A stretch of 64,000 bases of DNA from Ensifer sp. WSM1721 (lineage in GTDB: Bacteria; Pseudomonadota; Alphaproteobacteria; Rhizobiales; Rhizobiaceae), in the NCBI RefSeq assembly GCF_000513895.2, contig NZ_CP165783.1:1-64000 (forward strand). Reading direction: 5' to 3'. Positions within the stretch are counted from its first letter, which is position 1; every line of letters starts with the position of its first letter. Under the pieces are notes generated by a model. That model saw only the letters and a list, made by a program, of their open reading frames with translations, was not told the DNA's origin and ran no database searches. A program made the translations under genes and the position numbers. Shown one piece after another: positions 1 through 44,126 of this stretch.

Positions 1-1263
1 ATGGATATGACGGGATCGGTGGCGGAGACGGCAAGCGCAAGCGGCGCAGGATATCGCAGGCCCGCCGACGAGGCGATCGCGGCGGACGCGCGGGCGCTTT
101 CCGAACAGTTGAAGGCGATGCGCGACCGCCTGTTTGCGCCGACCGCGATGAAAACGCTCCGCAGCTTCACCTCCGGCGAGGCCGCCAAGCTGATCGGCGT
201 CTCCGACGGCTATCTGCGGCAATTGTCGCTCGCGGGCGAGGGGCCGCAGCCCGACACCGGCATCGGCGGGCGCCGCTCCTATTCGCTCTCCGACATCAAC
301 GCGTTGCGCCGCCATCTTGCCGAACAGGCGCTCGCCAAAGCCAATGGGATCAAGGCGCGCGGCTATCTGAAGTGGCGCGATCCGGCGAAGGGCGAGCACC
401 TGCAGGTGATCTCGGTCACCAATTTCAAGGGTGGCTCCGGCAAGACGACGTCTTCCGTCCACCTCGCGCAATATCTCGCTTTGACCGGTCATCGGGTGCT
501 GGCGGTAGATCTCGACCCGCAGGCCTCGCTTTCGGCGCTGTTCGGCTATCAGCCGGAGCTCGACCTGACGGGCAACGACACGCTCTACGGCGCGATCCGC
601 TACGACGCCGAGGCGCGGCCGCTGAAAGAGATCATCCGTAAGACCTATTTCGATGGGCTCGATCTGGTGCCCGGCAATCTCGAACTGCAGGAGTTCGAGC
701 ATACGACGCCGCAGGCCTTGAGCGCCCGCCAGAGCGGCTCCGATGCGGGGCCGCTCTTCTTCGCCCGCGTGCAGGCGACGCTCGCAAGTGTTGCCGACGA
801 CTATGACGTCGTCGTCATCGACTGCCCGCCGCAGCTCGGCTATCTGACGCTCTCGGCGCTCTGCGCCTCGACCTCGGTCATCGTCACCGTGCATCCGCAG
901 ATGCTCGACGTCGCCTCGATGAACCAGTTCCTCTACATGACCTCGGACCTCCTGAGCGTCGTTCGCGAGGCCGGCGGCGAGCTCAATTTCGATTTCCTGC
1001 GCTATCTCGTCACCCGCTTCGAGCCCAATGACGGGCCGCAGGCGCAGATCGTCGGCTTCATGCGCTCGCTCTTCGGCGATCGCGTGCTGACCTCTGCCAT
1101 GGTGAAGTCCACGGCGATTTCCGATGCGGGTCTCACTAAGCAGACGCTCTACGAGGTCGGCCGCGAGAACTTCACCCGCGCGACCTACGACCGGGCGATC
1201 GAGTCGCTCAACGCCGTCAACGGCGAGATCGAGGCTCTCATTCACGCGGCCTGGGGGCGCTAA
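1..1263 (+). CDS. repA: Plasmid partitioning ATPase RepA (ParA family)
   Basis: RepA is the ParA-type ATPase of repABC replicons. With RepB it moves plasmid copies apart, and it represses its own operon. The 420 residues match the usual length of about 400. An N-terminal helix-turn-helix part (about residues 55-105) precedes the deviant Walker A motif KGGSGKTT at about 143-150, and the later motif VVVIDCPPQLGY is the Walker B/switch region. The ATG is the first base of the window, so the promoter lies outside it. repB follows after 3 bases, as in true repABC operons. RepA identity is secure; which repC it serves is open, because none follows repB here. Confidence 0.96.
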   Translation: MDMTGSVAETASASGAGYRRPADEAIAADARALSEQLKAMRDRLFAPTAMKTLRSFTSGEAAKLIGVSDGYLRQLSLAGEGPQPDTGIGGRRSYSLSDINALRRHLAEQALAKANGIKARGYLKWRDPAKGEHLQVISVTNFKGGSGKTTSSVHLAQYLALTGHRVLAVDLDPQASLSALFGYQPELDLTGNDTLYGAIRYDAEARPLKEIIRKTYFDGLDLVPGNLELQEFEHTTPQALSARQSGSDAGPLFFARVQATLASVADDYDVVVIDCPPQLGYLTLSALCASTSVIVTVHPQMLDVASMNQFLYMTSDLLSVVREAGGELNFDFLRYLVTRFEPNDGPQAQIVGFMRSLFGDRVLTSAMVKSTAISDAGLTKQTLYEVGRENFTRATYDRAIESLNAVNGEIEALIHAAWGR

Positions 1264-1266
1264 GAC

Positions 1267-2319
1267 ATGGCGGGCAACAACCGGAAGAACGAATTGCGCG
1301 CGCTCTTCATGGGAGGCGCGCCTGCATCCGCCCCGCAAGCCTCGGCGGACCAGCCTGACGCGTTGACACCTGTCAACAACCAGCCCGCGCCGAACGCGCC
1401 CCGGGCCGCATCCGGCGCAGTCAAGGCCATGGGGCTTTCGCTCGGCAGCATCACGCGCGAGGCCGAGGAGGCGCGCGCGCTCCGAGAGGCGCTGACCCAG
1501 GGCGAGCGCGTTGTCTCGCTCGATCCCGCCCTTGTCGAGGCTTCCTTCGTCGAGGACCGGCTGACCGACGGGGAGGTCGACGATCCGGACTTCCTGGCGC
1601 TCGTCGAGAGCATTCGCGAAAACGGCCAGCAATCGCCGATCCTCGTCCGTCCGCACCCGGTGAAGCAGGGCCATTACCAGACCGCCTACGGCCATCGTCG
1701 CCTGAAAGCGGTGCGCCGGCTCGAACTCCAGGTAAAGGCGATCGTCCGGCCGCTGACGGACGACGAACTGGTACTCGCCCAGGGCAAGGAGAACGCCGAG
1801 CGGCGCAATCTTTCCTTCATCGAACGGGCGCTTTTTGCTTCCGCACTCGTCGCCCGCGGCTTCGACCGCAAGGTGATCGGCGATGCGCTCGCCGTGCAGA
1901 AGAGCGAATTGTCGCGCCTCCTGCAGGTGGCCGACAGCGTCCCGCATCATATAGCTCGCGCCATCGGTCCGGCGCCGAAGGCCGGCCGCGAGCGCTGGAT
2001 GGCGATCGGCACGCTGCTTGAAGGGGAGGAGGCGCGGGCGCAAGCCGAGGATGAGATTGCCTCGTCTCGCTTCCGCGCCGCCGAGACCGACCAGCGCTTT
2101 CAGCTCGTCTTCAACCGCCTGTCGCAGAACGATAAGCCGGAGCCGGAGAAGCCGGAGGAGCTGAAAGATGAGGCGGGGCGGGTGTTCGCGCGGCTGAGGC
2201 TCGACGGTAAAGCGCCCAAGATCGAGTTCCTGCCGGGTACCCACCCGGCTTTCCTCAAGGAAGCCGTGTCGATGCTGGCGAAGTGGTACGCCACCTTTGT
2301 GGCGAACCAAAAGTCGTAG
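1267..2319 (+). CDS. repB: Plasmid partitioning protein RepB (ParB family)
   Basis: RepB is the ParB-type centromere-binding protein of repABC plasmids. It binds parS and stimulates RepA. The 350-residue product has the ParB N-terminal fold (about residues 100-180, with GQQSPILVRPHP and the YGHRRLKA segment) and a helix-turn-helix around 205-226 (GDALAVQKSELSRLL). The gene starts 3 bases after repA, so the two are co-transcribed. The C-terminus (ending ATFVANQKS) differs clearly from the second RepB tail preserved at about 42.5-42.75 kb, so the two come from different repABC lineages. No repC and no antisense-RNA-bearing leader follow; a repeat mosaic and an oxidoreductase gene lie downstream instead. 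Confidence 0.95.
   Translation: MAGNNRKNELRALFMGGAPASAPQASADQPDALTPVNNQPAPNAPRAASGAVKAMGLSLGSITREAEEARALREALTQGERVVSLDPALVEASFVEDRLTDGEVDDPDFLALVESIRENGQQSPILVRPHPVKQGHYQTAYGHRRLKAVRRLELQVKAIVRPLTDDELVLAQGKENAERRNLSFIERALFASALVARGFDRKVIGDALAVQKSELSRLLQVADSVPHHIARAIGPAPKAGRERWMAIGTLLEGEEARAQAEDEIASSRFRAAETDQRFQLVFNRLSQNDKPEPEKPEELKDEAGRVFARLRLDGKAPKIEFLPGTHPAFLKEAVSMLAKWYATFVANQKS
1362..1377. promoter_or_regulatory. parS-like partition site inside repB
   Basis: The sequence GTTGACACCTGTCAAC is a 16-bp palindrome with only the two central bases unpaired. It follows the repABC centromere pattern GTT-N10-AAC and lies within the first 40 codons of repB. Position inside a rep gene is known for some repABC plasmids. 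Binding by this RepB is inferred. Confidence 0.7.
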
Positions 2320-2338
2320 CTGTCGCGGCATGTGATTT

Positions 2339-2505
2339 GCCCCTCACCCTACAGCGCCGTGCGTCCTTTCAGACGCACAAAGGACGCTGTAGGACTTTGA
2401 ATTGCTGCATGTTTTTGTCCTTAAATCGGGTACGATTTAAGGAAACATGCAGTAGCCCTCTCCCCGCACGCGGGGAGAAAGGTGGCGGGCAGGCCGGGTG
2501 AGGGG
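2339..2505. repeat. Mosaic of rhizobial palindromic intergenic repeats
   Basis: Three palindromes stand in a row between an outer inverted pair (CCCTCACCC at 2341-2349, GGGTGAGGG at 2496-2504). The first, 2349-2392, is a CTACAGCG/CGCTGTAG stem with inner TGCGTC/GACGCA. The second, about 2405-2452, has CTGCATGTTT/AAACATGCAG outside and CCTTAAATCG/CGATTTAAGG inside. The third, 2456-2476, is CTCCCCG-CACG-CGGGGAG. This matches the RIME and ABC-type mosaic elements common between rhizobial genes. It occupies the place where repC would normally follow repB. Confidence 0.8.
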
Positions 2506-2536
2506 GAAGTACGGGCGGAAAACCGCCCGACACCTT

Positions 2537-3700
2537 TTACTCGTAATCGACCCAAATCCCACCCTGGTCCGCCGAGCGAACACAAGTCTCAACCCAGCGG
2601 ACACCTTCGAGGCCCGCATCGATGCCTGGAAAGCAGAGGTTCTCGATGCCTTCCGGCGCGAGCCCGCGGTTGCCGTTGATCGCGAGAGCGAAGCGACGGT
2701 AGAGATTGGCCCAGGCCTCGAACAGGCCCTCCGGGTGGCCGCCGCCGATGCGGTCGTCGAGGCGGGCTTCCGGGTAGAGATAATCCATGCCGCGTTCGAG
2801 GATGCGAACCGGCTCCCCCTGGATCTCATAGGAGAGCTGGTTCGGCCGCTCGTCCCACCACTCGATGCTCGCTTTCGAGCCGACGATGCGGACCTTCTGG
2901 CCGTGCATCGAGCCGGCATTGACGGCGCTCGACCAGACATTGGCGACGGCGCCGTTGTCGTATTCCATCAGCGTGATTGCATTGTCCTCGAGCGGCGCGC
3001 GGCTCTTGACGAAGCTCTGGCGCACGCACATCAGCCGCTTGATCTTCAGATGCGGCAGGATGACTTCGGAAATATAGATCGGGTGCGTGCCGACGTCGCC
3101 GAGCACATAACTTGGGCCGGCGAATTTCGGGTCGACACGCCAGCGCGTGGACGGGTTCTGCTCCTCGACCGGGGCACTGTGGAAGCCGTGGGCGAATTGC
3201 AGATTGACGATGCGGATTTCGCCGACATCGCCGTTCTTCACCATGGCGCGCGCCTGTTCGATCATCTGGTGGCCAGCATAGCCATAGGTGACGCCGACGA
3301 TGAGGCCGCGTGCTTCGGCAAGCGCTTTCAGCTCCTTCGCCTCAGTGACGGTGAAGCAGAGCGGCTTTTCGCAGACGACGTGGAGGCCATGCTCGAGGGC
3401 GGCCTTGCAGATGGTGAAATGGGTGTTGTTGGGCGTGGCGATGGAAACCGCCTTAATGCCGTCTGGCCGCTTCGCTTCCTCGGTGAACATGGTCCGGTAA
3501 TCCGGATAGCTGCGCGCCTCGCCGAGCCCCAGATCGACGCCGAAGGCGCGGCCGCGTTCAGGGTCGAGATCGAAAGCGCCGGCAGCGAGCTCGAAAGTCT
3601 CGTCTCGAAGCGCAGCGGAGCGATGGATGTAGCCGATCTGGCTGCCGCGTCCGCCCCCGACCATGCCCCAGCGGATCGGCTTTCTCTTCTTCTCTGACAT
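2537..3700 (-). CDS. Gfo/Idh/MocA family NAD(P)-dependent oxidoreductase
   Basis: This 387-residue protein is a sugar or inositol-type dehydrogenase. The N-terminal Rossmann segment starts with RWGMVGGGRGSQIGYIHR, and the family motif EKPLCFTVTEAKEL (about residues 110-125) carries the conserved EKP whose lysine contacts substrate. The C-terminal half is the usual alpha/beta domain. It is the last gene of a leftward unit with two TIM-barrel isomerases, the standard arrangement of an inositol or rare-sugar catabolic module. The substrate cannot be told from sequence. The start ATG is chosen for its match to the family N-terminus. Confidence 0.92.
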   Translation of the reverse strand: MSEKKRKPIRWGMVGGGRGSQIGYIHRSAALRDETFELAAGAFDLDPERGRAFGVDLGLGEARSYPDYRTMFTEEAKRPDGIKAVSIATPNNTHFTICKAALEHGLHVVCEKPLCFTVTEAKELKALAEARGLIVGVTYGYAGHQMIEQARAMVKNGDVGEIRIVNLQFAHGFHSAPVEEQNPSTRWRVDPKFAGPSYVLGDVGTHPIYISEVILPHLKIKRLMCVRQSFVKSRAPLEDNAITLMEYDNGAVANVWSSAVNAGSMHGQKVRIVGSKASIEWWDERPNQLSYEIQGEPVRILERGMDYLYPEARLDDRIGGGHPEGLFEAWANLYRRFALAINGNRGLAPEGIENLCFPGIDAGLEGVRWVETCVRSADQGGIWVDYE

Positions 3701-3724
3701 TGTGGTGTTCCTGAGTTCCGCGAT

Positions 3725-4648
3725 CTAAAAACCAGCCGAGCGCAGATAGTCGCGGCTTTCCTTCACGTCCGCGAGACTGCCGGCGACGCTTAGAGGATCG
3801 CGCTCCTGCTCGACCGTGATGAAGCCGTGATAGCCGATTTCCTCGAGTGCTCGCTTAACCGCCGGATAGTCGATGACGCCGCGGCCGATCGGGCACATCA
3901 CGCCTTGAGCGCAGGCCTCGAAGAAGCGAATCCTCTCGCCGAGCACGCGGCGGAAGACCTTTTCGTCGATATCCTTGAAGTGCACGTAGTCGAGCCGGTC
4001 GGCATATTTCCGGAGCGTGTCGATCGGGTCCATGCCGGCGTAGTAGGTGTGGCCCGTGTCGATGCAGAAGCCCGCGACTTCCGCCGGCACGTCCCTTGCG
4101 ATCCGCTCGATCTCATCGGCGAACTCGATATAGCCGCCGGCATGCGGATGTATGACGGCGCGTACGCCATATTTGCTCGTCGCAAGCTCGGCGATGGCCT
4201 TGATGTTGGCGGCCATGCCGCGCCACTCTTCGTCCGAGAGCCGAGGTGCTCTGTCGGAGTGGCTAGCGGCAAAATCGCGCTCGTCGTGGCCCCAGTCCAT
4301 CACCGTCAGATACGGTGTCTTGAAGCGCTGGCCGGGCACTTGCTCGGGCTGCGGCAGTTTGGTCGTAACGGCGCAGATTTCGTCGGTCTTGCGGAGAAGA
4401 TTCTCGCGATTCTCCGGCGAGACGAGGTCGTCGAAGATCGTGCCGGCGACGATGAAGAGCTTGCGCTCCTGCAGCGCCTTGGCGACGCGTTCGGAATCGA
4501 GCGGCACATAGCCATAGGGGCCGAGTTCCAGGCCACCATAGCCGGCGGCGCCCGCCTCGTCGAAGACCCGCTCCCAGGCGGGCAGGTTCGGGTTCTTGAC
4601 GTCATCCACGCCCCAGCAGCATGGGGCCGTCGTAATTGTGATTGTCAC
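3725..4648 (-). CDS. Sugar phosphate isomerase/epimerase, IolE-like TIM barrel
   Basis: The 307-residue protein belongs to the AP endonuclease-2-like TIM-barrel family, which includes inosose dehydratase IolE and many sugar epimerases. Metal-site residues appear in the segments VIHPHAGGYIEF, GFCIDTGHTYYAG and YVHFKDID. It opens with CCWGVDDVKNPNLPAWERV, similar to IolE-type proteins. It lies in the middle of the leftward module, 24 bases upstream of the dehydrogenase gene. Inosose or a related keto-sugar is a plausible substrate, but the rest of an iol operon is not here, so this stays a family-level call. Confidence 0.88.
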   Translation of the reverse strand: MTITITTAPCCWGVDDVKNPNLPAWERVFDEAGAAGYGGLELGPYGYVPLDSERVAKALQERKLFIVAGTIFDDLVSPENRENLLRKTDEICAVTTKLPQPEQVPGQRFKTPYLTVMDWGHDERDFAASHSDRAPRLSDEEWRGMAANIKAIAELATSKYGVRAVIHPHAGGYIEFADEIERIARDVPAEVAGFCIDTGHTYYAGMDPIDTLRKYADRLDYVHFKDIDEKVFRRVLGERIRFFEACAQGVMCPIGRGVIDYPAVKRALEEIGYHGFITVEQERDPLSVAGSLADVKESRDYLRSAGF

Positions 4649-4678
4649 GGGTGTTGTCCTAATTGCGTAAGGCGCAGC

Positions 4679-5593
4679 TTACGCGCGTTTTGCCGGCCAG
4701 TATTTGTCAACGTATCTCTGGATTTCCGAGCGCATGAAGCGGCCGGACTCGTCGGCGCGATCCTCCCAGCCGAAGACGCAGGCCGTGACGATGCCGTCGA
4801 AGCCGACTTCGGCAAGCGAGGAGAAGAAGACGTCCCAGTTGATCTCGCCCTGGTACATGTCCATGTGCTGGTGGATCGTCACCTTGGCGCCCGGCGGATT
4901 GATGATGTAGCGCAGGCCGGACGACGCCTTGTGGTTATAGGTGTCGGCCACATGGACATGGGCGATCAGCGGGCCGGCATCGCGGATCATCTTCGCCATG
5001 TCGTCGCCGAAATAGAAGGTATGCGGCGCGCAATAGAGAAACTTGACGTTCTTCGAGCCGATCGTCTTCAGCATGTCGATCGCCGGATGCAGCGTCTCGC
5101 ACCAGTCCTCGGGATGTGGCTCCATGTTGAGCGTCACGCCTTCCTTTTCGAAGACCGGCACGAGTTCTTCCATCGAGCGCCACCAGGCTGCCTCGCTGTG
5201 CTCGTGGGTGTGCATGCCGCCGCAGCAGTTGGAGCGGTGGCTGCGGTCGGGCGAGGGGCCACGGCCGAATTCCGAATTCATCGTGTCGCAGCCCATCTCA
5301 ACGGCGATCTGGATTGCTTCCTTCCAGTAGCGGACGGCGGCCTGGCGCTCGTCCTCGTGCGGGCTCGCCCAGCGGTACATCGGCAGGATCGAGGCGAGCT
5401 GAACCCCATAGTCCTTCAGCGCCGACTTGAACTCGGCGATCCTCTCCTTGTGCGCGCGCGGTCGCGCCCACCAGGGCAGGAAATCGTCGCGCGGCGAAAG
5501 CTCGATATAGTCGTAGCCGAGCTCCGCCGCCTTCCGACACAGATCGCGGAGGCTGAGATGGCGATGCATATAGGGGTCGAGTGCGATCTTCAT
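4679..5593 (-). CDS. Sugar phosphate isomerase/epimerase, TIM barrel
   Basis: This is a second, divergent member of the xylose isomerase-like TIM-barrel family (304 residues). Likely metal ligands lie in NSEFGRGPSPD, LNMEPHPEDW, CAPHTFYFGDD and HVHVADTYNHK. It is the first gene of the leftward operon, with a strong AGGAGG-type ribosome site just before the ATG at 5593. Its promoter must lie in the 190-bp gap shared with the divergent LacI gene, which contains a perfect palindrome. Epimerase plus isomerase plus Gfo/Idh dehydrogenase suggests stepwise oxidation and epimerisation of a polyol or uncommon sugar. No dedicated transporter is adjacent. Confidence 0.88.
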   Translation of the reverse strand: MKIALDPYMHRHLSLRDLCRKAAELGYDYIELSPRDDFLPWWARPRAHKERIAEFKSALKDYGVQLASILPMYRWASPHEDERQAAVRYWKEAIQIAVEMGCDTMNSEFGRGPSPDRSHRSNCCGGMHTHEHSEAAWWRSMEELVPVFEKEGVTLNMEPHPEDWCETLHPAIDMLKTIGSKNVKFLYCAPHTFYFGDDMAKMIRDAGPLIAHVHVADTYNHKASSGLRYIINPPGAKVTIHQHMDMYQGEINWDVFFSSLAEVGFDGIVTACVFGWEDRADESGRFMRSEIQRYVDKYWPAKRA

Positions 5594-5720
5594 GAGTGCT
5601 CCTCCTTGCCGCCGACCCGCTTTTCGCTCTCAAGCGGGCGGTCCTTGTTCGCGCCGTTCCGGTTTTCCCCCGAGACGAGGCACAGGATAGCGCTGGGCAG
5701 CGCGGCGCTCTAAGTCTTCC

Positions 5721-5738
5721 TTGATCAAATTTGATCAA
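5721..5738. promoter_or_regulatory. Perfect 18-bp palindromic operator, LacI type
   Basis: TTGATCAAATTTGATCAA is a perfect palindrome in the divergent gap between the isomerase operon and the LacI gene, 46 bases before the LacI start. Length and symmetry suit a LacI-family dimer. That the adjacent regulator binds it is inferred. Confidence 0.75.
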
Positions 5739-5784
5739 TCACAGATGCTGGCTGCGAAATGGCGGTTTCGCGGGAGGGCTGTGC

Positions 5785-6786
5785 GTGGTCAAAGTGACCT
5801 TGAAGGATGTCGCGAAAGAAGCCGGCGTCGGCACCGCGACCGTCGAGCGCGTCGTCAACGGTCGCGGCGGCGTGCGCCCGGAAACGGTCGAGAAGGTCTT
5901 TCTGGCAGTCAGGAAGCTCGACTATCGGCACAGGATGCCGGAAGCGCATCGGGGGCTGATCAGGATCGAGGTCATCCTGGTTCGGCCCGAAACGAGCTTC
6001 TACTCGCGCCTGAACCACGCCTTCGAGCGGATCGCCGCCCTGCTCGACAAGAGCATCGTCGTCCACCGCACCTTCGCGCGCGAGAACGATCCGGTTGAGT
6101 TCGCCCATTACATCGCCAATCCGGCGGTCCGGCGCTCCGCATTGATCGTCGTGGCGCCGGACCATCCGGATGTGGTGGCGAGCCTGAGAATAGTCGCAAG
6201 CCACGGCACGCCGGTCGTGCAGATCATGACGCGTCCCGCCCCGGAACTCGCCTATATCGGCATCGACAACTATGCCGCCGGCCGGACTGCCGCCTATTAC
6301 ATGTCGCGCATGCAAAGGGATCGGCCGGGCACCTTTGTCGCGCTTTGCCACAGCGGCGCCTATGAGAACCACAAGGAACGGATCCGCGGCTTCTCGGACT
6401 ACCTCGCCGGGCACGATGGCGATCATCTCTTCAGCCAAGTGATGTTCGACTATGACGACGACATCAACTCGATGGAGCTCCTGCGCGACGCACTTCGGGA
6501 TGACCCCGCGGTCATCGGCCTTTACACTGCCGGCGGCGACAACCGGTCGGTTGCCTCCGTCCTGAAAGACCACGCGCAGCGTTGGGTCTTCTGGGTTGGT
6601 CACGAGCTTTCCGAGCAGTCTCGCAATGCTCTCCGGGAGGGCGTCATGTCGATCGTGCTCGATCAGGCGCCGGAGATCCAGGCGCGCCGGTCGATCGACC
6701 TGACGCTTAAGCCCCTTGGTCTCATTGAACTCGAGGTAAGCCCCGAGCCGGTGCGCTTCCTGACGATCACGCCGGAGAATCTCTGA
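5785..6786 (+). CDS. LacI family transcriptional regulator
   Basis: The product carries the LacI helix-turn-helix at its very N-terminus (VTLKDVAKEAGVGTATVERVVNGRGG), followed by a periplasmic-binding-protein-like sensor domain (about residues 60-330). The GTG at 5785 is preferred over the ATG at 5731 because GGGAGG lies 8 bases upstream and the protein then begins at the DNA-binding helix; the ATG would lie inside the palindromic operator. The gene is divergent from the isomerase/dehydrogenase operon, so it most likely represses that operon and itself until a sugar-like inducer binds. One oddity: the recognition helix reads TATVERV rather than the usual TVSRV. Confidence 0.92.
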   Translation: MVKVTLKDVAKEAGVGTATVERVVNGRGGVRPETVEKVFLAVRKLDYRHRMPEAHRGLIRIEVILVRPETSFYSRLNHAFERIAALLDKSIVVHRTFARENDPVEFAHYIANPAVRRSALIVVAPDHPDVVASLRIVASHGTPVVQIMTRPAPELAYIGIDNYAAGRTAAYYMSRMQRDRPGTFVALCHSGAYENHKERIRGFSDYLAGHDGDHLFSQVMFDYDDDINSMELLRDALRDDPAVIGLYTAGGDNRSVASVLKDHAQRWVFWVGHELSEQSRNALREGVMSIVLDQAPEIQARRSIDLTLKPLGLIELEVSPEPVRFLTITPENL

Positions 6787-6804
6787 GCTGGCCGCGCGAC
6801 GAAG

Positions 6805-7959
6805 TCACGCCTCCACCGGCTGCGCTTTTCTCCTGTCGATCAGACGCTTGGCAAGCCTCTGCCCAGGCTTTTCGACTGCGAAAAAAGTCGCGCAGGCAGC
6901 CATGTAGACCAAGGGTACGAGAATTGCGGTGACCACGGCGAAGCGTGCAGGCGGGGTCATCATGTCACCGAAAGCGCTAATGAAATAGGCGGCAAGCGGC
7001 TGCAGGAAGATGAGATGCCAGAGATAGGCTCCGAATGATAGTTCCCCCAGCCAATGAACGAATCGATTGCCGAGCGCGGAGGATAGAGCACTCAGTCCGC
7101 CACCCAGTGCGTCGCCGAAGAAGCGATGATGGAGCAGGGCGAAGAAGACGGCGACAAGCATCACCCGCATCAGCATCTTCATCGCCGTCACGTCGCCGCC
7201 GATCGGCAGAAGAACAAGCGCCAGGGCGGCTGCGCCGTAGAGGAAAGCCTTCGATCTCTCCGCCTCCAGGCCGAGCGCCAACAGCATTCCGCAAAGGAAA
7301 ATGTGCATCTTCAGCGGCAGGAAGGCCGGCATCGGAAAGCGTATCCCCAACAGCCCGGCCGTCGCGACGATCGCGCTGGCGATAACGGATGTGACGAGCG
7401 CACCCTTAAGCCGGCCGCTTCTCTTGAACAGAAGCATGACGAAGGGAAAGGCCGCATAGAACTGCATTTCGAGGCCTATGCTCCAGTCCGGCAGCGGAGT
7501 CCGGTAGGCATAGTCGGGCGAGAGGCCGAAAAGAAAGCTCAAATGCATCAGCCCGTTCGTCAGTCCGTTGTCGAGGTAGCGTGCGGGCGATTGCGGCGTT
7601 CTATCGAGGAAGGTGTCGATCACCATTCGCGATTCGAACAGCCATGGGCCGAGCATGAAGGCGACGGCCAGAAGAAGGTAGTAGAGCGGCGCGATCCTGA
7701 GAAATCGCCGGATCCAGAAGTTGCGCCAGGTCGAGGTCAGTTCCCAAGGTTCCTGGGCGGCGCGCAGCCGATAGTGGAACACCATCAGGAAGCCGGAAAG
7801 CATGATGAAAAGATCGACACCGAGATCAGGTTCCGACAACACCGGCAGCCGCCAGCCCGTCAGCAACAGAGCATGACCGATCATCACCCAGAGGGATGCC
7901 AGGCCTCGAAGCCCATCCAAACAATCGATCCGGCTTCCGCGGGAAGTGTGCTCAGCCAT
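6805..7959 (-). CDS. Acyltransferase family 3 membrane protein (OafA/ExoZ-like)
   Basis: This integral membrane acyltransferase of about 384 residues likely O-acetylates a surface polysaccharide or lipid. It starts with the family signature RIDCLDGLRGLASLWVMIGH, where the arginine and following histidine are conserved. About ten hydrophobic segments follow, with the typical segment FWIRRFLRIAPLYYLLL near residue 105. The ATG at 7959 has AAGGAG 9 bases upstream and is preferred over the in-frame TTG at 7965. The gene converges on the LacI gene with 18 bases between. No exopolysaccharide genes are adjacent, so the acceptor is unknown. Confidence 0.9.
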   Translation of the reverse strand: MAEHTSRGSRIDCLDGLRGLASLWVMIGHALLLTGWRLPVLSEPDLGVDLFIMLSGFLMVFHYRLRAAQEPWELTSTWRNFWIRRFLRIAPLYYLLLAVAFMLGPWLFESRMVIDTFLDRTPQSPARYLDNGLTNGLMHLSFLFGLSPDYAYRTPLPDWSIGLEMQFYAAFPFVMLLFKRSGRLKGALVTSVIASAIVATAGLLGIRFPMPAFLPLKMHIFLCGMLLALGLEAERSKAFLYGAAALALVLLPIGGDVTAMKMLMRVMLVAVFFALLHHRFFGDALGGGLSALSSALGNRFVHWLGELSFGAYLWHLIFLQPLAAYFISAFGDMMTPPARFAVVTAILVPLVYMAACATFFAVEKPGQRLAKRLIDRRKAQPVEA

Positions 7960-9145: not shown

Positions 9146-9219
9146 CGTTTTCAGCGCCACGACACGTCAACCGCTGTAAGGGCACGAAATTCTCACCAAC
9201 CCAAGTGGACGAAAAGACC

Positions 9220-21292: not shown

Positions 21293-21414
21293 ATCGAAAA
21301 AGAGAAAGCCCGGCGTGGGAGGAGGTACGCCGGGCTTTCGATCCTGATCGGCAACTGGGAGGAGGAGGGTTGCCGATCCCACGATAGAGCTGGGAGGAGG
21401 AGTGCTCTATCGAT
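21293..21414 (-). ncRNA. αr14 (NfeR1-like) trans-acting small RNA with anti-SD loops
   Basis: Three consecutive hairpins lie on the minus strand: 21383-21411 (stem GATAGAGC/GCTCTATC), 21346-21378 (stem GATCGGCAAC/GTTGCCGATC), and 21304-21339 (stem GAAAGCCCGGCGT/ACGCCGGGCTTTC), the last followed by a T-run (TCTCTTTTTC) as a Rho-independent terminator. Each loop exposes CCTCCTCCC, an anti-Shine-Dalgarno sequence, as in the multicopy αr14 family of rhizobia. Such RNAs block ribosome binding on ABC transporter and other mRNAs. A promoter is expected just right of 21415; TTGCA and TATTGT-like boxes are present there. Family assignment rests on architecture remembered from the family. Confidence 0.85.
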
Positions 21415-21601
21415 AAGTCATACAATAATGCTGCAACGCAGCAATTGCAAGCCCAAAAACCAGAAAATTTATTGGGTGGACAAATAACGCGTAATTGGGA
21501 CGAGGATTGGGCCGCGGCACAGCGGGCGGTGATCTTGCCGCGCGCGCTTGCTTTCATGGTCATATGCGCCAGATTCGAAGGAGCGGATATTGGAGACGGC
21601 G

Positions 21602-35402: not shown

Positions 35403-35454
35403 TGCGGTCGGATGCCATTGTTTCCTCCGATCGAGAAATTAGATGAGGATGACC

Positions 35455-37164: not shown

Positions 37165-37269
37165 GGCGGAGGCGCAGCAATTGGCGGCTCGAATTGGTGC
37201 GATCGGTCCAAGTTCCAGCCGGCCGGGCAGCGCGCGTTCGGTGGGATGGTGAAGGGCACTGCGCCGCCG

Positions 37270-38472
37270 CTACACCCGCTCCAGCGCGACCGCGATGCCC
37301 TGGCCGACGCCGATGCACATGGTGGAGAGCGAGTAGCGTCCGCCCGTCTCGACGAGCTCGAGTGCCGCCGTGCCGGTGATGCGCGCGCCGGACATGCCGA
37401 GCGGGTGGCCGAGCGCGATCGCGCCGCCATTGCGGTTGACGCGGGGATCGTCGTCGGCGATCCCGAGCTCGCGCAGCACCGCCAGGCCCTGGCTCGCGAA
37501 AGCCTCGTTGAGCTCGATGACGTCGAACTGGTCCTGCGTCATGCCGAGCCGCGCCATCAGCTTTTGCGAGGCGGGGAGAGGGCCGATTCCCATGATGCGT
37601 GGCGGCACGCCGGCGGTCGCGCCGCCAAGGATGCGGGCAATGGGTCTGAGCCCGTGTTTCTTCGCCGCCTCTTGCGATGCGATGATCAGCGCCGCCGCGC
37701 CGTCGTTGACGCCGGAGGCGTTGCCGGCGGTGACGGTACCGCCTTCGCGGAACGGCGCCTTCAGCTTGGCGAGCGCCTCGATCGTCGTTGCGCGCGGATG
37801 TTCGTCGCGGTCAACTGTGAGCGGCTCGCCCCTCTTTTGCGGAATGGTGACCGCAACGATCTCCTTGGCGAGACGGCCGTTCGCCTGGGCGGCCGCGGCC
37901 TTCGCTTGGCTGCGCACGGCAAAGGCGTCCTGATCCCCACGCGAGACATCATACGCCTCGGCGACGTTCTCGCCGGTCTCCGGCATCGAATCGACGCCGT
38001 ATTGCGCCTTCATCAGCGGATTGATGAAGCGCCAGCCGATCGTCGTGTCGTGGATTTCGGCATGGCGCGAGAAGGCGCTCTCGGCCTTGGGCAGGACGAA
38101 GGGCGCCCGCGACATGGATTCGACGCCGCCGCCGATCATCAGCTCCGCCTCGCCGGATCTGATCGCGCGGGCCGCGGTGATCACCGCATCCATGCCGGAG
38201 CCGCAGAGCCGGTTGATCGTCGTGCCGGGGACGGAGACGGGCAGGCCCGCGAGCAACAGCGACATGCGCGCGACATTGCGGTTGTCCTCGCCCGCCTGGT
38301 TGGCACAGCCGAAGATCACGTCGTCGACCGCACCCCAGTCGACGGAGCCATTGCGCTCCATTAGCGCCTTCAGCGGGATGGCGCCAAGATCGTCGGCGCG
38401 CACGGCGGCAAGCGCGCCGCCGAAGCGGCCGATCGGCGTGCGGATATAGTCGCAGATGTAAGCTTCGCGCAT
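37270..38472 (-). CDS. pcaF: Beta-ketoadipyl-CoA thiolase
   Basis: The 400-residue thiolase splits beta-ketoadipyl-CoA into succinyl-CoA and acetyl-CoA, the last step of the protocatechuate branch. Thiolase residues are visible: the acylated cysteine in INRLCGSGMDAV (about residue 90), the histidine in GGAIALGHPLGMSGARI, and the second cysteine in MCIGVGQGIA. The opening REAYICDYIRTPIGRFGGAL is the PcaF/PaaJ type. Its start overlaps the pcaJ stop, and pcaI precedes, giving pcaIJF in one unit. Genomic context makes pcaF more likely than another degradative thiolase. Confidence 0.95.
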   Translation of the reverse strand: MREAYICDYIRTPIGRFGGALAAVRADDLGAIPLKALMERNGSVDWGAVDDVIFGCANQAGEDNRNVARMSLLLAGLPVSVPGTTINRLCGSGMDAVITAARAIRSGEAELMIGGGVESMSRAPFVLPKAESAFSRHAEIHDTTIGWRFINPLMKAQYGVDSMPETGENVAEAYDVSRGDQDAFAVRSQAKAAAAQANGRLAKEIVAVTIPQKRGEPLTVDRDEHPRATTIEALAKLKAPFREGGTVTAGNASGVNDGAAALIIASQEAAKKHGLRPIARILGGATAGVPPRIMGIGPLPASQKLMARLGMTQDQFDVIELNEAFASQGLAVLRELGIADDDPRVNRNGGAIALGHPLGMSGARITGTAALELVETGGRYSLSTMCIGVGQGIAVALERV

Positions 38473-39263
38473 CAGGCGGCCTCCTTCGCCGTACCGGTGC
38501 CCGCATGGGCCTTCCTGGTGCGGGCATTGATGTCGCGCAGCACCGAAAGCTCCGTTTCCGTCGGTGCCGGCGTCTCGATGACGATCTCGGCGAATTTAAT
38601 CGGCCAGCCGCAATTCTCGATGATTTGCTCGCGGCTGACGCCGGGGTGGGTGGAGACGACGGTCAGTTCCTTGGTCTCCGGGGCCGGCTCGAGAATGCAG
38701 AGATCGGTGATGACGCGGGTCGGCCCGTTTGTCTTCAGGCCGAGCCTCTCGCGGTGGTTGCCGCCTTCGCCGTGCCCCATCGAGGTGACGAAGGGCAGCT
38801 TCTCGACGAAGCCGCGCTTCGTCAGCGCCATGGTGATGAAGATGCGGCCGCAATTGGAGGCGATCTCCGGCGCGCCGCCGCCGCCCGGCAGGCGGACCTT
38901 GGGATGGTCGTAAGGGCCGACGACGGTCGTGTTCAGGTTGGCGAATTTGTCGATCTGCGCGCCGCCGAGGAAGCCCGTCGTGATGCGGCCGCCCTGTAGC
39001 CAGTAGCGGAACATTTCCGGCACCGAGACGGTGAAGAGCGCCGTGTCGCAGAGCTCGCCGTCGCCGATCGAGAGCGGCAGGACGTCCGGCTTGGTGCCGA
39101 CGGTGCCGCTCTCATAGATCAGCGTGATGTCCGGCGCATGCGTCAGCCGCGCGACGTTGCAGGCGGCAGAGGGCGCGCCGATGCCGACGAAGCAGACGTC
39201 GTCGTTGGAAAGTTCGCGGGCCGCGGCGATCGTCATCATTTCGTTTGCGGTGAAATCCGTCAT
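38472..39263 (-). CDS. pcaJ: 3-oxoadipate CoA-transferase subunit B
   Basis: The 263-residue beta subunit transfers CoA from succinyl-CoA to beta-ketoadipate. The catalytic glutamate lies in LIYESGTVGTKPDVLPLSIG (about residue 50), and GGAQIDKFANLNTT and RLPGGGGAPEIAS are family segments. The ATG at 39263 with GAGGAGTCGACG upstream is chosen; an upstream extension in the same frame reads through pcaI and is not real. It starts 10 bases after pcaI and overlaps pcaF by one base. Both subunits are complete. Confidence 0.95.
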   Translation of the reverse strand: MTDFTANEMMTIAAARELSNDDVCFVGIGAPSAACNVARLTHAPDITLIYESGTVGTKPDVLPLSIGDGELCDTALFTVSVPEMFRYWLQGGRITTGFLGGAQIDKFANLNTTVVGPYDHPKVRLPGGGGAPEIASNCGRIFITMALTKRGFVEKLPFVTSMGHGEGGNHRERLGLKTNGPTRVITDLCILEPAPETKELTVVSTHPGVSREQIIENCGWPIKFAEIVIETPAPTETELSVLRDINARTRKAHAGTGTAKEAA

Positions 39264-39273
39264 CGTCGACTCC

Positions 39274-40134
39274 TCAGGCAACCTTGGCTGAGATTTTTGC
39301 GGCATGGCCGGCAAAGTCTTCCGGCGTCGCATCAAGCACGTTCTCCTTGATCCAGGCGGCGAAGGTCTCCCGGTCACGGGAAATCTCGTCCCAGCGGATG
39401 TAGAAGGCGTTGTTGCGCGGATAATAGCCATGCGCATAGGAGGGGAAGGCACCGCCCGGCACGTGGGCGACCGCGGTCACCGCCCAGCTTGGCAGCACGA
39501 CGGAATTGGGCGAGGGCGGCGAGAGTTCGTCGACGATCTCCTCGACCGTGACGAGCGAGCGCCTGGCGGCCAGCACCGCCTCTTTCTGCACGCCGACGAT
39601 GCCTTCGATCAGCACATTGCCTTTGCGGTCGGCGCGCTGCGCGTGGATGATCGTCACGTCAGGCCGGATCGCCGGCACGGCCGCGAGCACCTCGCCGGTG
39701 AAGGGACAGGTAACGCTTCTGATGTTGGCGTTCACCTTCGGCAGGTCGGCGCCGATATAGCCGCGCAACGTTGCGAAGGGCAGGTTCGCAGCGCCCGCCT
39801 CGTAGGCGTTCGCCATCGCCGCATGCGAATGCTCCTCGATTTGAAGCGGTCGCGGCCATTGATTTTCCACCGCGTCGCGGAAGCGGTGCAGCGAGCCGAC
39901 GCCGGGATTGCCGCCCCAGGAGAATTTCATCCCGCGCGCCGCGCCGACGCCGATCAGCTGGTCATAGAGAATATCCGGCGTCATGCGCACGAGGAACAGG
40001 TCTCTCCTGCCCTGGCGGATCACCTCATGGCCGGCGGCATAGGGGATCAGATGGGTGAACCCTTCCATGGCGACGGTATCGCCATCCCTGACGTTCTCCG
40101 CCACCGCTTCGGCGAGCGACACGATACGAGCCAT
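39274..40134 (-). CDS. pcaI: 3-oxoadipate CoA-transferase subunit A
   Basis: The 286-residue alpha subunit of the same CoA-transferase. The segments GDTVAMEGFTHLIPYAAGHE and FLVRMTPDILYDQLIGVGAA, then KFSWGGNPGVGSLHRF, are typical of the class I glutaconate/oxoadipate transferases. It heads the leftward pcaIJF operon; the ribosome site AGGGAGGG lies 5-8 bases before the ATG. The gap to divergent pcaR (172 bp) contains a long inverted repeat that would be the PcaR binding site, so induction by beta-ketoadipate is likely. Confidence 0.95.
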   Translation of the reverse strand: MARIVSLAEAVAENVRDGDTVAMEGFTHLIPYAAGHEVIRQGRRDLFLVRMTPDILYDQLIGVGAARGMKFSWGGNPGVGSLHRFRDAVENQWPRPLQIEEHSHAAMANAYEAGAANLPFATLRGYIGADLPKVNANIRSVTCPFTGEVLAAVPAIRPDVTIIHAQRADRKGNVLIEGIVGVQKEAVLAARRSLVTVEEIVDELSPPSPNSVVLPSWAVTAVAHVPGGAFPSYAHGYYPRNNAFYIRWDEISRDRETFAAWIKENVLDATPEDFAGHAAKISAKVA

Positions 40135-40242
40135 TAAAACCCTCCCTTCGTTTTTATTGCCGGCCTGCCGCTGGCCTTTTACGGCGGCATTCGGCAGCGG
40201 CTGCTGGTAATAAGCGCGCAGTTTCGAAGGCCGTCAAACATT

Positions 40243-40279
40243 TTGTGCGATATTTGACTTTTGTTCGTATATCGCACAA
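40243..40279. promoter_or_regulatory. PcaR operator overlapping the pcaR promoter
   Basis: TTGTGCGATAT (40243-40253) and ATATCGCACAA (40269-40279) are perfect 11-bp arms around a 15-base spacer. A candidate -35 TTGACT (40254-40259) lies in the spacer, with CAATCT 17 bases on as -10 for pcaR. IclR-family regulators bind such long spaced repeats. Confidence 0.8.
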
Positions 40280-40306
40280 TCTAGAGGTGAAACGGCAGGA
40301 GATGTC

Positions 40307-41062
40307 ATGCGGGAAACGGATTTCGTCAGCGGCTTTGCCCGCGGGTTGCGGGTGATCGAAGCCTTCGGCGAGGCGCAGCCGCGTCTTTCGATCGCGGACG
40401 CCGCGAAGATCACCGGACTCGACCGGGCGACGGTCCGGCGGTCGCTGCTGACGCTGTCGGAACTGGGTTATGCCGACTATGACGGCAAGTTTTTCACGCT
40501 CACTCCGAGGATCCTGAGGCTCGGGCACGCCTATCTTTCGGCGACGCCGCTGCCGACGATCGTCCAGCCCTATCTCGACCAGCTTTCGGAAAAGGCGGGC
40601 CAGAGCGCCTCCGCCTCAGTGCTGGACGGCACCGAGATCGTCTATGTGGCACGCGCCTCGCAGCGCCGGGTGATGTCCATCAACCTGACGCCGGGCTCGC
40701 GCCTTCCCGCCTATTGCGCCTCGATGGGCCGCGTCCTGCTCGCCGCGCTTCCCGAGCCGGAGGCGCGCGCCATCCTCGCCCGCTCGGAGCTGAGGGCCAA
40801 TACGCCGAAAACGAAGACCGATCCGGAGGAACTGATGGCGGAGCTCAGCCGGGTTCGCGCGCAAGGCTATGCAATCATCGATCAGGAACTCGAGCTCGGG
40901 CTATGCTCGATCGCGGTGCCGCTGATGAACGCGCGCAACCAGGTCATTGCCGCGCTCAATATCGGCGCTCCCGCGGCTCACGTCGCGGCCGCTGAACTGG
41001 CGGAGCGCTACCTGCTGTTGCTCAAGGAGACGCAGGCGGCACTGCGGCCGCTGGTACAGTAG
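40307..41062 (+). CDS. pcaR: IclR family regulator of beta-ketoadipate genes
   Basis: A 251-residue IclR-type protein: an N-terminal winged helix (ETDFVSGFARGLRVIEAFGE, then AKITGLDRATVRRSLLTLSE) and a C-terminal effector domain (about residues 75-250, with SVLDGTEIVYVARASQRRVM and GYAIIDQELELGLCSIAVPL). It matches PcaR/PcaU-type proteins and is divergent from pcaIJF, the known rhizobial arrangement, where it activates pcaIJF with beta-ketoadipate. The last 61 bases are duplicated as a fragment at 21932-21992. Confidence 0.94.
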   Translation: MRETDFVSGFARGLRVIEAFGEAQPRLSIADAAKITGLDRATVRRSLLTLSELGYADYDGKFFTLTPRILRLGHAYLSATPLPTIVQPYLDQLSEKAGQSASASVLDGTEIVYVARASQRRVMSINLTPGSRLPAYCASMGRVLLAALPEPEARAILARSELRANTPKTKTDPEELMAELSRVRAQGYAIIDQELELGLCSIAVPLMNARNQVIAALNIGAPAAHVAAAELAERYLLLLKETQAALRPLVQ

Positions 41063-41147
41063 CCGAGTCTCTGTTCCGAAAAATCCGCATTCGGCACCTG
41101 AGACCCGGCTTCGCTTTCGGTGGAGAGAGCGAACGTTGGCGTGGCCG

Positions 41148-41627
41148 TCAGCCGCGCCGAGCCGCCTCGATCGCGGCGACGTCGATCTTCCCCATATCCA
41201 GCATCGCAACAAACGCGCGTTTTGCTTCATCGCCGCCCGCAGCCAGCCCCTCGGTCAGCACGCGCGGCGTGATTTGCCACGAGACGCCCCATTTGTCCTT
41301 GCACCAACCGCACGCACTTTCCTGACCGCCATTGCTGACGATGGCGTTCCAATAGCGGTCGGTCTCTTCTTGATCGTCAGTGGCGATCTGGAATGAGAAG
41401 GCTTCGCTATGTTTGAACATGGGCCCACCATTGAGGCCGATACACGGGATGCCGGCGACGGTGAATTCGACCGTCAGCACGTCGCCCGCCTTGCCGGACG
41501 GGTAGTCGCTGGGAGCTCGGAAGATGGCACCGATCGAGCTGTTCGGAAAAGTCTCGGCGTAGAAGCGGGCTGCAGCCTCGGCATCCTTGTCATACCATAG
41601 GCAGATCGTGTTCTTGGCGATGGCCAT
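41148..41627 (-). CDS. VOC superfamily protein (PhnB-like, 3-demethylubiquinone-9 3-methyltransferase fold)
   Basis: The 159-residue protein has the glyoxalase/bleomycin-resistance fold of the PhnB type. Family text includes MAIAKNTICLWYDKDAEAAA, the middle FTVAGIPCIGLNGGPMFKHS, and ACGWCKDKWGVSWQITPRVL near the end. Despite the old family name it is not a proven methyltransferase. A ribosome site AAAGGGA lies 5-7 bases before the ATG. It stands alone between pcaR and a sugar or macrolide-type methyltransferase gene. Confidence 0.9.
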   Translation of the reverse strand: MAIAKNTICLWYDKDAEAAARFYAETFPNSSIGAIFRAPSDYPSGKAGDVLTVEFTVAGIPCIGLNGGPMFKHSEAFSFQIATDDQEETDRYWNAIVSNGGQESACGWCKDKWGVSWQITPRVLTEGLAAGGDEAKRAFVAMLDMGKIDVAAIEAARRG

Positions 41628-41811
41628 TGCTTGTCCCTTTCGCTTTGAGCCAGTTCAGGATTTCCGGCGCACTCGCAGGCGGTTCACAGTCAGGCTGAAC
41701 GCCCCACCAGCAGCAGAGAATGCGCACAGCCATCCGACGTTCCGCCGGCAATGCCCGAAAGGTTATAGCAGTTTCGCCAGGGCTGCCGCTCTCAAGACCA
41801 GATGCGGCCAT

Positions 41812-42504
41812 TCATCCATTGAGTCTGGTCCGGCGTAGGACGACGTTTTCTCCGTCTTCGAATGCGAAGTCAGGACGCGCCTGCAGGAACTCGTCTGTCG
41901 CCGTTCGGCATCCTTCGTAGTCATGGTAGTCATCGATCAGGATGACCCCGCGCGGACTTATCCGGTCTGCCAGCCCATTCAGGCAATAGCTGACGGGATC
42001 ATACCAGTCGCAGTCGATGTGAGCGAAGGCGATCTTCTCTATGCCGGCCGCCGGGAGGGTGTTCTCGAATAGTCCCTTATGGAGGTTGACCATCGGCCCA
42101 TCGATGGCGAGGCCATACTTCGTGAAGGACCGGCAGACTTCATCGAAAAGGTTGTCGCGGTAGCCATAGTAAAACTCGCCGCCGAGTCCTTTTGATTCCC
42201 CGCTCGCGATCGTCTTGTAACGGTCCCTTGCTTTCTGGCCGTCCTTCGCCGATTGAGGTGGGGGGATCATTCCAAAAACATCGAAGCCGTGAAAGCGGCG
42301 TCGATGGCGGTTTGCTTTCTTGGACAGGATGATGGCGCTTCCGCCCAGGGCAATGCCGAATTCGGCTATGTCGCCAGGCACATTCTCTTTCAGAACTTCC
42401 TTCAGCGCTGTCTCGAGACGTCTCAGCTTCCGAGGCGAGAGGTAGGTAAGGCGCTCTCGCCGCACCGACCGCGCCGTGGCACTCAACCGGGAAGTTTCGA
42501 GCAT
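41812..42504 (-). CDS. TylF/MycF-type O-methyltransferase
   Basis: A 230-residue SAM-dependent methyltransferase of the macrocin O-methyltransferase family. The SAM-binding region is IAEFGIALGGSAIILSKKAN, the metal-linked segment KIAFAHIDCDWYDPVSYCLN contains the typical HIDCDWYD motif, and RGVILIDDYHDYEGCR follows. The ATG at 42504 is chosen as the first with protein-like context, but no ribosome site precedes it, because upstream DNA is a truncated repB. The gene may have lost its own promoter and N-terminal end when the two joined. The substrate, probably a glycosyl group, is unknown. Confidence 0.85.
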   Translation of the reverse strand: MLETSRLSATARSVRRERLTYLSPRKLRRLETALKEVLKENVPGDIAEFGIALGGSAIILSKKANRHRRRFHGFDVFGMIPPPQSAKDGQKARDRYKTIASGESKGLGGEFYYGYRDNLFDEVCRSFTKYGLAIDGPMVNLHKGLFENTLPAAGIEKIAFAHIDCDWYDPVSYCLNGLADRISPRGVILIDDYHDYEGCRTATDEFLQARPDFAFEDGENVVLRRTRLNG

Positions 42505-42754
42505 GTGGCGCGCACGCCAAAGCCGACAGCGACAAGCGCTTTGATCTGGCGCTAGGCCAGTTACTGGGAAAAGCGGCAAAGCCGACCGCGAAAACATGGA
42601 AGCCACGAGAGGGAAAAGCGCTGACGGGCAGCATCAAGGCTGACGGAAAGACGTACACGTTGGCGCTCAAAGCCGACGAAGCGCCCGCCTTCGGGGAGTT
42701 TCTTACAAATAAGCTCGATGAGCTTTACGCAGAATTCAAACGTACAGGAGACTG
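42505..42754 (+). pseudogene. 3' remnant of a second repB
   Basis: From about 42505 the plus-strand frame reads a RepB C-terminus of about 82 codons: ADSDKRFDLALGQLLGKAAK, a lysine/arginine-rich linker, then GKTYTLALKADEAPAFGEFL and LDELYAEFKRTGD before TGA at 42752-42754. This matches the layout of the intact RepB tail (TDQRFQLVFNRL) but not its sequence. The ParB N-terminal and helix-turn-helix parts are gone; the methyltransferase gene begins exactly at the left edge on the other strand. Confidence 0.85.
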
Positions 42755-42763
42755 AGCCGCAAA

Positions 42764-42816
42764 AGAAAAAGGCCCCCAAACGTTGCCGTCGTGGAAGCCC
42801 TTCTCTGTGTTGTAGC
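42764..42816 (-). ncRNA. Counter-transcribed RNA (incA) regulating repC
   Basis: The repB-repC gap carries the standard antisense RNA gene on the minus strand. A CTTGAC -35 (42847-42852) and GATTCT -10 (42823-42828) point left. The RNA ends in a stem GGCTTCC/GGGGGCC followed by TTTTTC (42764-42770). Such RNAs of about 50-60 bases pair with the repC leader, lower RepC synthesis and act as an incompatibility factor. Exact ends are estimated. Confidence 0.8.
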
Positions 42817-42911
42817 GAACCGAGAATCGCATTTCCCCGAATCCCAGTCAAGAGTCCTTGGCACCGTTTTTGGTGAGCAGGTTTCTTTTGCCTTTTTGAA
42901 AGGTGAAGGAA

Positions 42912-44126
42912 ATGCAGGTTGGAAGTGTGACGACGCCCTTTGGGCGGCGGCCGATCTCGCTTGCCCAAATCAAAGGGCAGCTGCGGACGGCCGAAATCAA
43001 ACCCGGCAAGACCGCCGACAAATGGAAGGTGTTCCGTGACGCCTGCGAGGCGAGGGCGGTGCTCGGCATTCAGGACCGCGCCCTTGCGGTGCTCGATGCT
43101 CTGCTGACGTTTTACCCGGACAACGAGCTTTGCGAAGACCGCGGTCTCGTCGTATTTCCGTCAAATGATCAGCTCTCGGTACGCGCGCACGGTATTGCAG
43201 GCACGACCTTGCGCCGGCATCTCGCCGCGCTGGTGGACGCAGGATTGATCCAGCGGAAGGACAGCGCCAACGGCAAGCGTTACGCCCGCAAGGATGATAG
43301 CGGGGCGATCGAGGAGGCTTTCGGCTTCAGCCTGGCGCCGCTGCTGGCCCGTGCCGAGGAGCTCGCCCACGCCGCACAAGAGGTTGCCGCAGAGCGTAAG
43401 CGCTTCCGCATCACCAAGGAGGCGCTGTCGATCTGCCGGCGCGATGTGCGCAAGCTGATCAGCGCTGCGATGGAGGAGGGGGCTGCCGGAGATTGGGGGC
43501 GCATCGAGGAGGTGTTCCTCGGTCTGACCGGGCGCATCCCCCGCACACCTACGATCGCCGATATCGACACAATCCTCGAAGAGATGAAGATGCTGCGCGA
43601 GGAAATCATCAACCGGCTCGAAACTCAGGAAGATTCCGAAAATACGGCCAGCAATGCTGTTCAAAACGAACGCCACATACAGAATTCAAATACCGAATCC
43701 AGCAATGAACTTGAACCTAGCTCTCGAGAAGAGCAGGGCGCGAAGCCGAGCCAGAAAACGGGGTCGATGCGTGTGCCGATAAAGGCATTTCCGCTGGGTA
43801 TGGTGCTGAAGGCCTGCCCAGAGATCAACGATTATGGGCCGGGGGGCGCGGTGGGAAGCTGGCGCGACCTGATGTCGGCGGCGGTCGTCGTTCGATCGAT
43901 GCTGGGGGTCAGCCCGTCGGCCTACGAGGATGCCTGCGAGGTCATGGGGCCGGAAAACGCGGCGGTTGCTGTTGCCTGCATTCTCGGAAGGGCGGGGCAC
44001 ATCAACAATGCCGGCGGTTACCTCAGGGATCTGACCGCCAAGGCGCGGCGAGGGGAATTCTCCCTCGGCCCAATGCTGATGGCACTGATGCGGGCACGTG
44101 GGGTGCATGTGCGCATGGTCTCGTGA
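42912..44126 (+). CDS. repC: Replication initiator RepC
   Basis: RepC initiates replication of repABC-family plasmids at an origin within its own gene. The 404-residue product opens MQVGSVTTPFGRRPISLAQI and shows the winged-helix DNA-binding half (IAGTTLRRHLAALVDAGLIQ RKDSANGKRYARKDD) typical of RepC. The C-terminal half ends in VGSWRDLMSAAVVVRSMLGV and GHINNAGGYLRDLTAKARRG, both hallmarks. It is intact in length. The leader contains the antisense RNA gene, but repA is absent upstream and repB is only a scrap, so this is an orphan repC or half of a split system with repAB at 1-2319. Confidence 0.97.
   Translation: MQVGSVTTPFGRRPISLAQIKGQLRTAEIKPGKTADKWKVFRDACEARAVLGIQDRALAVLDALLTFYPDNELCEDRGLVVFPSNDQLSVRAHGIAGTTLRRHLAALVDAGLIQRKDSANGKRYARKDDSGAIEEAFGFSLAPLLARAEELAHAAQEVAAERKRFRITKEALSICRRDVRKLISAAMEEGAAGDWGRIEEVFLGLTGRIPRTPTIADIDTILEEMKMLREEIINRLETQEDSENTASNAVQNERHIQNSNTESSNELEPSSREEQGAKPSQKTGSMRVPIKAFPLGMVLKACPEINDYGPGGAVGSWRDLMSAAVVVRSMLGVSPSAYEDACEVMGPENAAVAVACILGRAGHINNAGGYLRDLTAKARRGEFSLGPMLMALMRARGVHVRMVS
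43627..43730 (+). other. AT-rich segment inside repC, candidate oriV
   Basis: This stretch in the middle of repC (around GAAAATACGGCC and AGAATTCAAATACCGAATCC) is markedly richer in A and T than the surrounding gene and encodes a Gln/Asn/Ser-rich linker. RepC-type origins are known to lie in such an AT-rich part of repC. Location by analogy only. Confidence 0.45.

Follow-up and report, generated by a model that had tools for sequence, protein, structure and literature searches.

The 64-kb stretch analysed here (the window) is the start of contig C2 (1,701,392 bp) in the four-contig genome of Ensifer sp. WSM1721, a replicon that by similarity is the pSymB-type chromid of a Sinorhizobium. It opens with a repA-repB pair that no repC follows. 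Modules of the repABC type are described as self-contained, with partition, initiation and control travelling together, and the initial annotation took this orphan pair, with a lone repC at 43 kb of the window, for a split replication system. We find instead a complete repABC on the same replicon and consider it probable that this module replicates the chromid, while orphan repAB is the remnant of an older replicator, kept as a second partition system that acts on its own class of parS site, class 2. This reading draws on directly observed gene content, genus-wide conservation, selective constraint, the joint distribution of RepB types and parS classes, partly shared neighbourhoods and strand polarity along the contig. 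Beyond the scope of the initial annotation, the pair is genus-wide, under purifying selection and, judged by its distribution, matched to a second parS class at the working origin.

The record of C2 is cut exactly at the repA start codon, so that repA starts at base 1, and because base 1 of the window is base 1 of the contig, the region upstream was taken from the far end of C2. Orphan repA (1..1263, + strand) encodes a ParA-type partition ATPase of 420 amino acids (TIGR03453, 648 bits) and repB (1267..2319, + strand) a ParB-type protein of 350 amino acids (TIGR03454, 380 bits), both above the curated cut-offs. The two genes had been described as intact at 1-2319, with neither repC nor an antisense leader behind them, and both statements are borne out: the reading frames are open, the window's list of open reading frames has no repC downstream of orphan repB, and no Rfam match to the counter-transcribed antisense RNA (ctRNA) or the S-element was found near the pair in the window. 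As a repABC replicator, the region 1-2319 thus has repA and repB of the family and no downstream repC with ctRNA; as a ParABS locus, it has a ParA-type ATPase and a ParB-type protein under selection. Public records annotate the pair as RepA and RepB.

Orphan RepB was found at 79-100% identity in 32 of the 33 genomes of the genus, the window's own counted, and the sole genome without a match (G030) is only 70% complete. In the 31 other genomes, where the locus was read as 10-kb stretches covering at least 4.2 kb past repB, repA and repB are both present throughout (31/31; repA conserved at 92-99%) and no stretch has a RepC match beside them (0/31). Premature stops are absent from all 32 copies, G003 included. 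The median pairwise ratio of nonsynonymous to synonymous substitution rates (dN/dS, Nei-Gojobori, pairs not independent) is 0.068 for orphan repA and 0.119 for orphan repB; the working module gives 0.053, 0.136 and 0.229 for repA, repB and repC across 31 genomes. With values as low as those of the working pair, decaying debris is ruled out as an account of orphan repAB. All three Ensifer chromids read (3/3) have the same repC-less pair, which therefore predates the split between Sinorhizobium and Ensifer. Outside these genera, Phyllobacterium sophorae (L186), Agrobacterium sp. AGB01 (L202) and Neorhizobium sp. SHOUNA12A (L209) also have an orphan-type RepB, and the stretches read there gave no RepC match; these loci may have lost repC in their own right, or their repC may have diverged or be located elsewhere.

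A profile search of the genome for RepC (PF03428) gave four matches: one each on C3 and C4, one at the 43-kb copy and one at C2:1,423,083-1,423,601. The last falls within C2:1,422,327-1,426,022, where repA, repB, ctRNA, S-element and repC follow one another in order, with everything expected of a repABC replicator, colinear with S. meliloti 1021 pSymB 55,090-58,784 at 82% identity. To read replication polarity we used the FtsK-orienting polar sequence (KOPS) motif GGGNAGGG, taken from PMC13342612 (here and below, articles are cited from the parts available to us), because the GC skew of 8-kb samples of C2 was too weak to use. Sampled over 278 kb of C2, with an arm limit of 0.72 Mb chosen after the samples were seen, the motif occurs 25 times forward and 4 times reverse from the working module clockwise to 0.72 Mb, and 1:15 on the other side (Fisher p = 1.6e-7). 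Polarity does not reverse at the window (18:4 over 0-0.72 Mb, 7:0 from 1.42 Mb to the contig end). By the completeness of the module and the KOPS reversal there, the chromid replicates from the repABC at C2:1,422,327-1,426,022. KOPS polarity also reverses at about 0.72-0.85 Mb of C2, the point opposite the working repABC being about 0.57 Mb; this off-centre reversal agrees with the offset reported for dif of S. meliloti pSymB (PMC13342612), and a search with a dif pattern gave no match in the genome.

The initial annotation had allowed for a complete repABC outside the window and had proposed to search the rest of the replicon for one; that alternative proved right, and the split system falls with it. 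Its suggestion that partition proteins of one lineage accompany an initiator of another does hold for the chromid, although the initiator is the RepC at 1.42 Mb and not the one at 43 kb. As a single split replicator, orphan repAB and the 43-kb repC are ruled out by the complete module. That they still jointly maintain the replicon is extremely improbable: both parts are intact on one molecule, but so is a complete repABC, and repAB occurs in 32 of 33 genus genomes whereas the repC fragment matches accessory plasmids. Nothing suggests that the two cooperate.

The 43-kb repC is, by similarity, part of an accessory-plasmid backbone fragment (42501..46968, + strand) that comprises a repB tail, ctRNA, S-element, repC, integrase and VapBC. 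The tail, the last 84 codons of a repB (42501..42752, + strand), is 86% identical to the RepB of an S. meliloti accessory plasmid and therefore does not derive from the repB at 1267-2319. It is followed by the ctRNA (42759..42804, - strand; RF00489, 75.2 bits), the S-element of the repC leader (42846..42914, + strand; RF00490, 81.9 bits), an intact repC of 407 amino acids (42903..44126, + strand; NF040974, 569 bits) and a tyrosine recombinase (44711..45868, - strand) that also comes after repC on related plasmids. An intact repC with its antisense RNA gene and a different repB tail at 42.5-44.1 kb had been reported, as had its separate lineage from orphan repAB; both observations stand, the second on trees and on the resemblance of the tail. 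Over 42,521-46,968 the window is about 84% identical to S. meliloti accessory-plasmid backbones, and G003 and G004 have stretches with 90% identity to the repB-to-repC part of the 4.45-kb fragment, with a repB adjoining. The records listed (20 of 496) are all plasmids, of 77-405 kb. Ancestral chromid genes (pca, iclR) lie to its left, and no clear repeat was found at the ends of the 42.5-47 kb insertion.

As a repABC replicator this fragment has no repA and only the last 84 codons of repB. There is a minor chance, compatible with the reading we prefer, that it acts as a second origin or as an incompatibility determinant against related plasmids. Its repC, S-element and ctRNA are intact, and a small plasmid bearing the pSymB antisense region has been used to displace pSymB (PMC4207669), but repA, most of repB and the operon promoter region are absent, and there is no KOPS reversal at 43 kb, although a recent insertion would leave KOPS unchanged.

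Two classes of parS mark the working origin. Class 1, GTTGTCCGCGGACAAC, stands about 140-185 bp upstream of working repA, and class 2, GTTGACAGCTGTCAAC, at 0.4-4.3 kb downstream of working repC, with one extra site in G016 at about 6.5 kb. Counted over 31 loci and two further loci, with G016 and G009 read across the record start, both classes are present at the working locus in 33 of 33 genus genomes, and class 2 in at least two exact copies in 32; the other, G027, has a single one, which lies at a contig edge. The window's genome has exactly two copies of class 1 and exactly three of class 2, all at the working origin; a looser parS consensus gives 18 sites, against 11 for a reversed control. 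Neither class occurs at any of the 31 orphan loci, and a parS of the consensus GTTNNNNGCNNNNAAC beside the orphan genes, which we also considered, is absent from 31 of 31, bar one unrelated near-palindrome in G013. At up to one mismatch, no parS lies in the window or in the upstream flank of orphan repA. In three Ensifer loci (L266, L288 and L289) the sequence upstream of working repA holds one more exact class 2 site, at about 0.5 kb, and a second class 1 site, at about 1.4 kb.

Outside the genus, the occurrence of both classes was compared with that of the RepB types. We took the best 80 of 563 confirmed loci related to orphan RepB, ten of them Sinorhizobium and 70 outside. RepC was matched downstream of repB, at a distance of up to 2 kb, at 66 of the 70 outside loci; exact class 2 occurs at 34, a one-base variant only at 5 and class 1 at none. 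The 75 sites at these loci divide into 67 exact class 2, 7 one-base variants and 1 unrelated, with no class 1. Conversely, exact class 1 was found in 18 of the 247 family genomes drawn, 4 of which belong to the window's genus; a working-type RepB (53-71% identity) is present in all of the other 14, and in 7 of 11 non-Ensifer genomes class 1 lies 1.3-2 kb upstream of the working-type repB, the expected position of the repA promoter.

It could be, though we think it quite unlikely, that working RepB reads both classes and that orphan RepAB has no site on the chromid. The position of class 2 next to the working module speaks for this, but class 2 is missing altogether from 8 of the 14 outside genomes that hold a working-type RepB and class 1. 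Exact class 2 occurs in the remaining 6, the same 6 that have an orphan-type RepB (at least 51% identity to orphan RepB, E <=1e-88; at most 48%, E >=5e-75, in the other 8), so that class 2 accompanies orphan-type RepB in 6 of 6. Such a coincidence would arise once in 3003 if the rows were independent, a figure to be read with three of the six belonging to one genus and with a cut-off set post hoc. Residue 217, in the DNA-binding region, also separates the two groups: the orphans, 33 of 33 class 2 RepBs and the RepB of Paracoccus aminophilus pAMI4, which binds class 2 in vitro (PMC9040568), have arginine there, and lysine is found in every one of the 10 class 1 RepBs, of which five come from the window's genus or Ensifer. 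By its distribution and by residue 217, class 2 fits as the predicted parS of orphan RepB.

For binding, for the role in segregation and for the order of events we infer the following. The old replicator of the chromid would have lost its repC, and another repABC would have taken over. Orphan RepB is predicted to load on the class 2 copies (GTTGACAGCTGTCAAC) just downstream of working repC, and orphan RepA to drive or position the resulting RepB/class 2 complexes in parallel to the working pair, whose RepB would use class 1 (GTTGTCCGCGGACAAC) upstream of its own repA. Orphan repB lies about 100-560 kb from working repB by the shorter arc in the 20 genomes with both on one contig; partition genes and centromere would thus be about 100-560 kb apart, with two centromere classes at one origin. 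Orphan RepAB might also bind class 2 and be retained for regulation, or for tethering the origins of chromid and chromosome, and not for DNA movement. We regard this as unlikely: class 2 sites do lie near working repC, and in A. tumefaciens the RepB of chromosome 2 interacts with ParB1 and the two cluster the origins (PMC9239152), but RepA is conserved at least as much as RepB, as expected where a ParA motor matters. As a separate observation, working and orphan repB both lie on chromosome-size contigs in G022 (C1, 6.13 Mb) and G008 (C1, 6.48 Mb), which suggests natural fusions of chromosome and chromid.

How a second partition system of this kind could have arisen is indicated by the trees and by one relative. 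A concatenated RepA and RepB tree joins the orphans first to Ensifer (0.981) and then to G131 (0.989); single-gene trees, some nodes of which are weakly supported, place them within the complete repABC modules, apart from the working one. G131 has both modules, a working-type RepB with adjacent class 1 and a complete orphan-type repA-repB-repC (RepA 91.5%, RepB 65% to the orphan), with three class 2 sites 71 kb from the orphan-type module on the same contig. This is how the state preceding repC loss should look. The separation of genes and centromere may have been made possible by a class 2 cluster lying far from repABC, an arrangement present in G131 and reported for Allorhizobium vitis chromosome 2 (PMC9040568). 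We lean, by a small degree, towards a history in which the chromid, having lost its old repC, came under a repABC of different descent and the centromere of the former RepAB ended up at the new origin, all before Sinorhizobium and Ensifer split.

Several observations weigh against orphan repAB as a partition system on class 2. The orphan genes themselves have no class 2 site linked to them, so that the connection is one of distribution, and 31 of the 70 outside orphan-type RepB loci have no consensus palindrome in the stretch read. In G179, class 2 and the orphan-type RepB are on separate contigs, and residues 174 and 214 of pAMI4 RepB depart from the class 2 set. Class 1 does not lie beside the working-type module in 4 of 11 non-Ensifer genomes (G179, G035, G224 and G061), nor does it occur on any of four plasmids with a working-type RepB of 52-57% identity (0/4), one of which (L262) has two sites of another sequence; the working-type family is therefore broader than class 1. 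The genes at the class 2 cluster of G131 differ from those at the Sinorhizobium origin, which leaves unsupported the idea that the working module inserted next to an already existing class 2 cluster whose flanking genes are conserved.

The arrangement has partial counterparts. S. meliloti pSymB (NC_003078), a chromid of the same type, has its working repABC at 55,093-58,784, class 1 at 58,913 and class 2 at 53,601 and 54,646, and orphan repAB at about 1,611,490-1,613,811 beside ftsK, with working repB at 56559-57560 and orphan repB at 1612756-1613811; it differs in that the stretches read hold nothing equivalent to the 43-kb repC. On pAMI4, several copies of the same 16-base parS form 3parS away from repABC, are bound by RepB in vitro and are required for partition (PMC9040568). 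However, 3parS serves the only repAB, that of the operon, which carries the same parS itself. The class 2 repeats at the chromid origin, located downstream of repC in 33 of 33 genomes, are unlike the parS of the module next to them and correspond instead to a second repAB far away. Allorhizobium vitis chromosome 2 (L211) shares an orphan-type RepB, with parS reported 30-90 kb from repABC (PMC9040568), but its repABC is complete, with a repC match downstream. The 259-kb plasmid of Martelella mediterranea also combines two repABC lineages on one molecule (PMC5613091); both of its modules are called functional, whereas the second of Sinorhizobium is repAB only, genus-wide.

PMC9040568 states that its authors were unaware of any further repABC replicon that has an extra partition locus, and notes that repC is missing from some replicons of its figure. 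In the literature searched, the class 2 word occurred only in that article and the class 1 word nowhere, and the available parts of PMC6090056, PMC4207669 and PMC5929573 do not mention orphan repAB. Neither a second repAB on pSymB nor class 2 sites there were reported in the literature searched, a novelty that is provisional with most subscription papers outside the search.

Neighbouring genes are shared in part with relatives. The window holds the second ftsK gene of the genome (12844..15657, + strand), with all three of the Pfam FtsK_SpoIIIE, alpha and gamma domains and 75% identity over about 512 amino acids to the C1 copy; several relatives carry this second ftsK no more than 10 kb from orphan repAB, and relatives of the window ftsK adjoin orphan-type RepB in 3 of the 70 outside loci. 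Genes for PcaF and coenzyme A-transferase subunits and iclR (37270..41062, no single strand assigned) are ancestral chromid neighbours of orphan repAB, and pcaF homologues, with iclR too in 4 cases, lie upstream of complete repABC at 5 of the 70 outside orphan-type RepB loci. In S. meliloti (L018), the block that holds orphan repAB and ftsK has the reverse orientation with respect to pca from that in the window and S. fredii NGR234. Rfam small RNAs in the window are ar14 and ar15, at 21301-21418 and 48578-48687.

In this core chromid of a model genus, partition proteins of one lineage appear to operate in parallel with an initiator from another. If the proposed history is true, it would represent the relocation of a bacterial centromere and an origin served by two independent ParABS systems, the genes of one lying 100-560 kb from it, which bears on how plasmids evolve into second chromosomes and on origins with several groups of parS. 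It also bears on experiments that assume a single pSymB partition system, and is directly testable in S. meliloti 1021.

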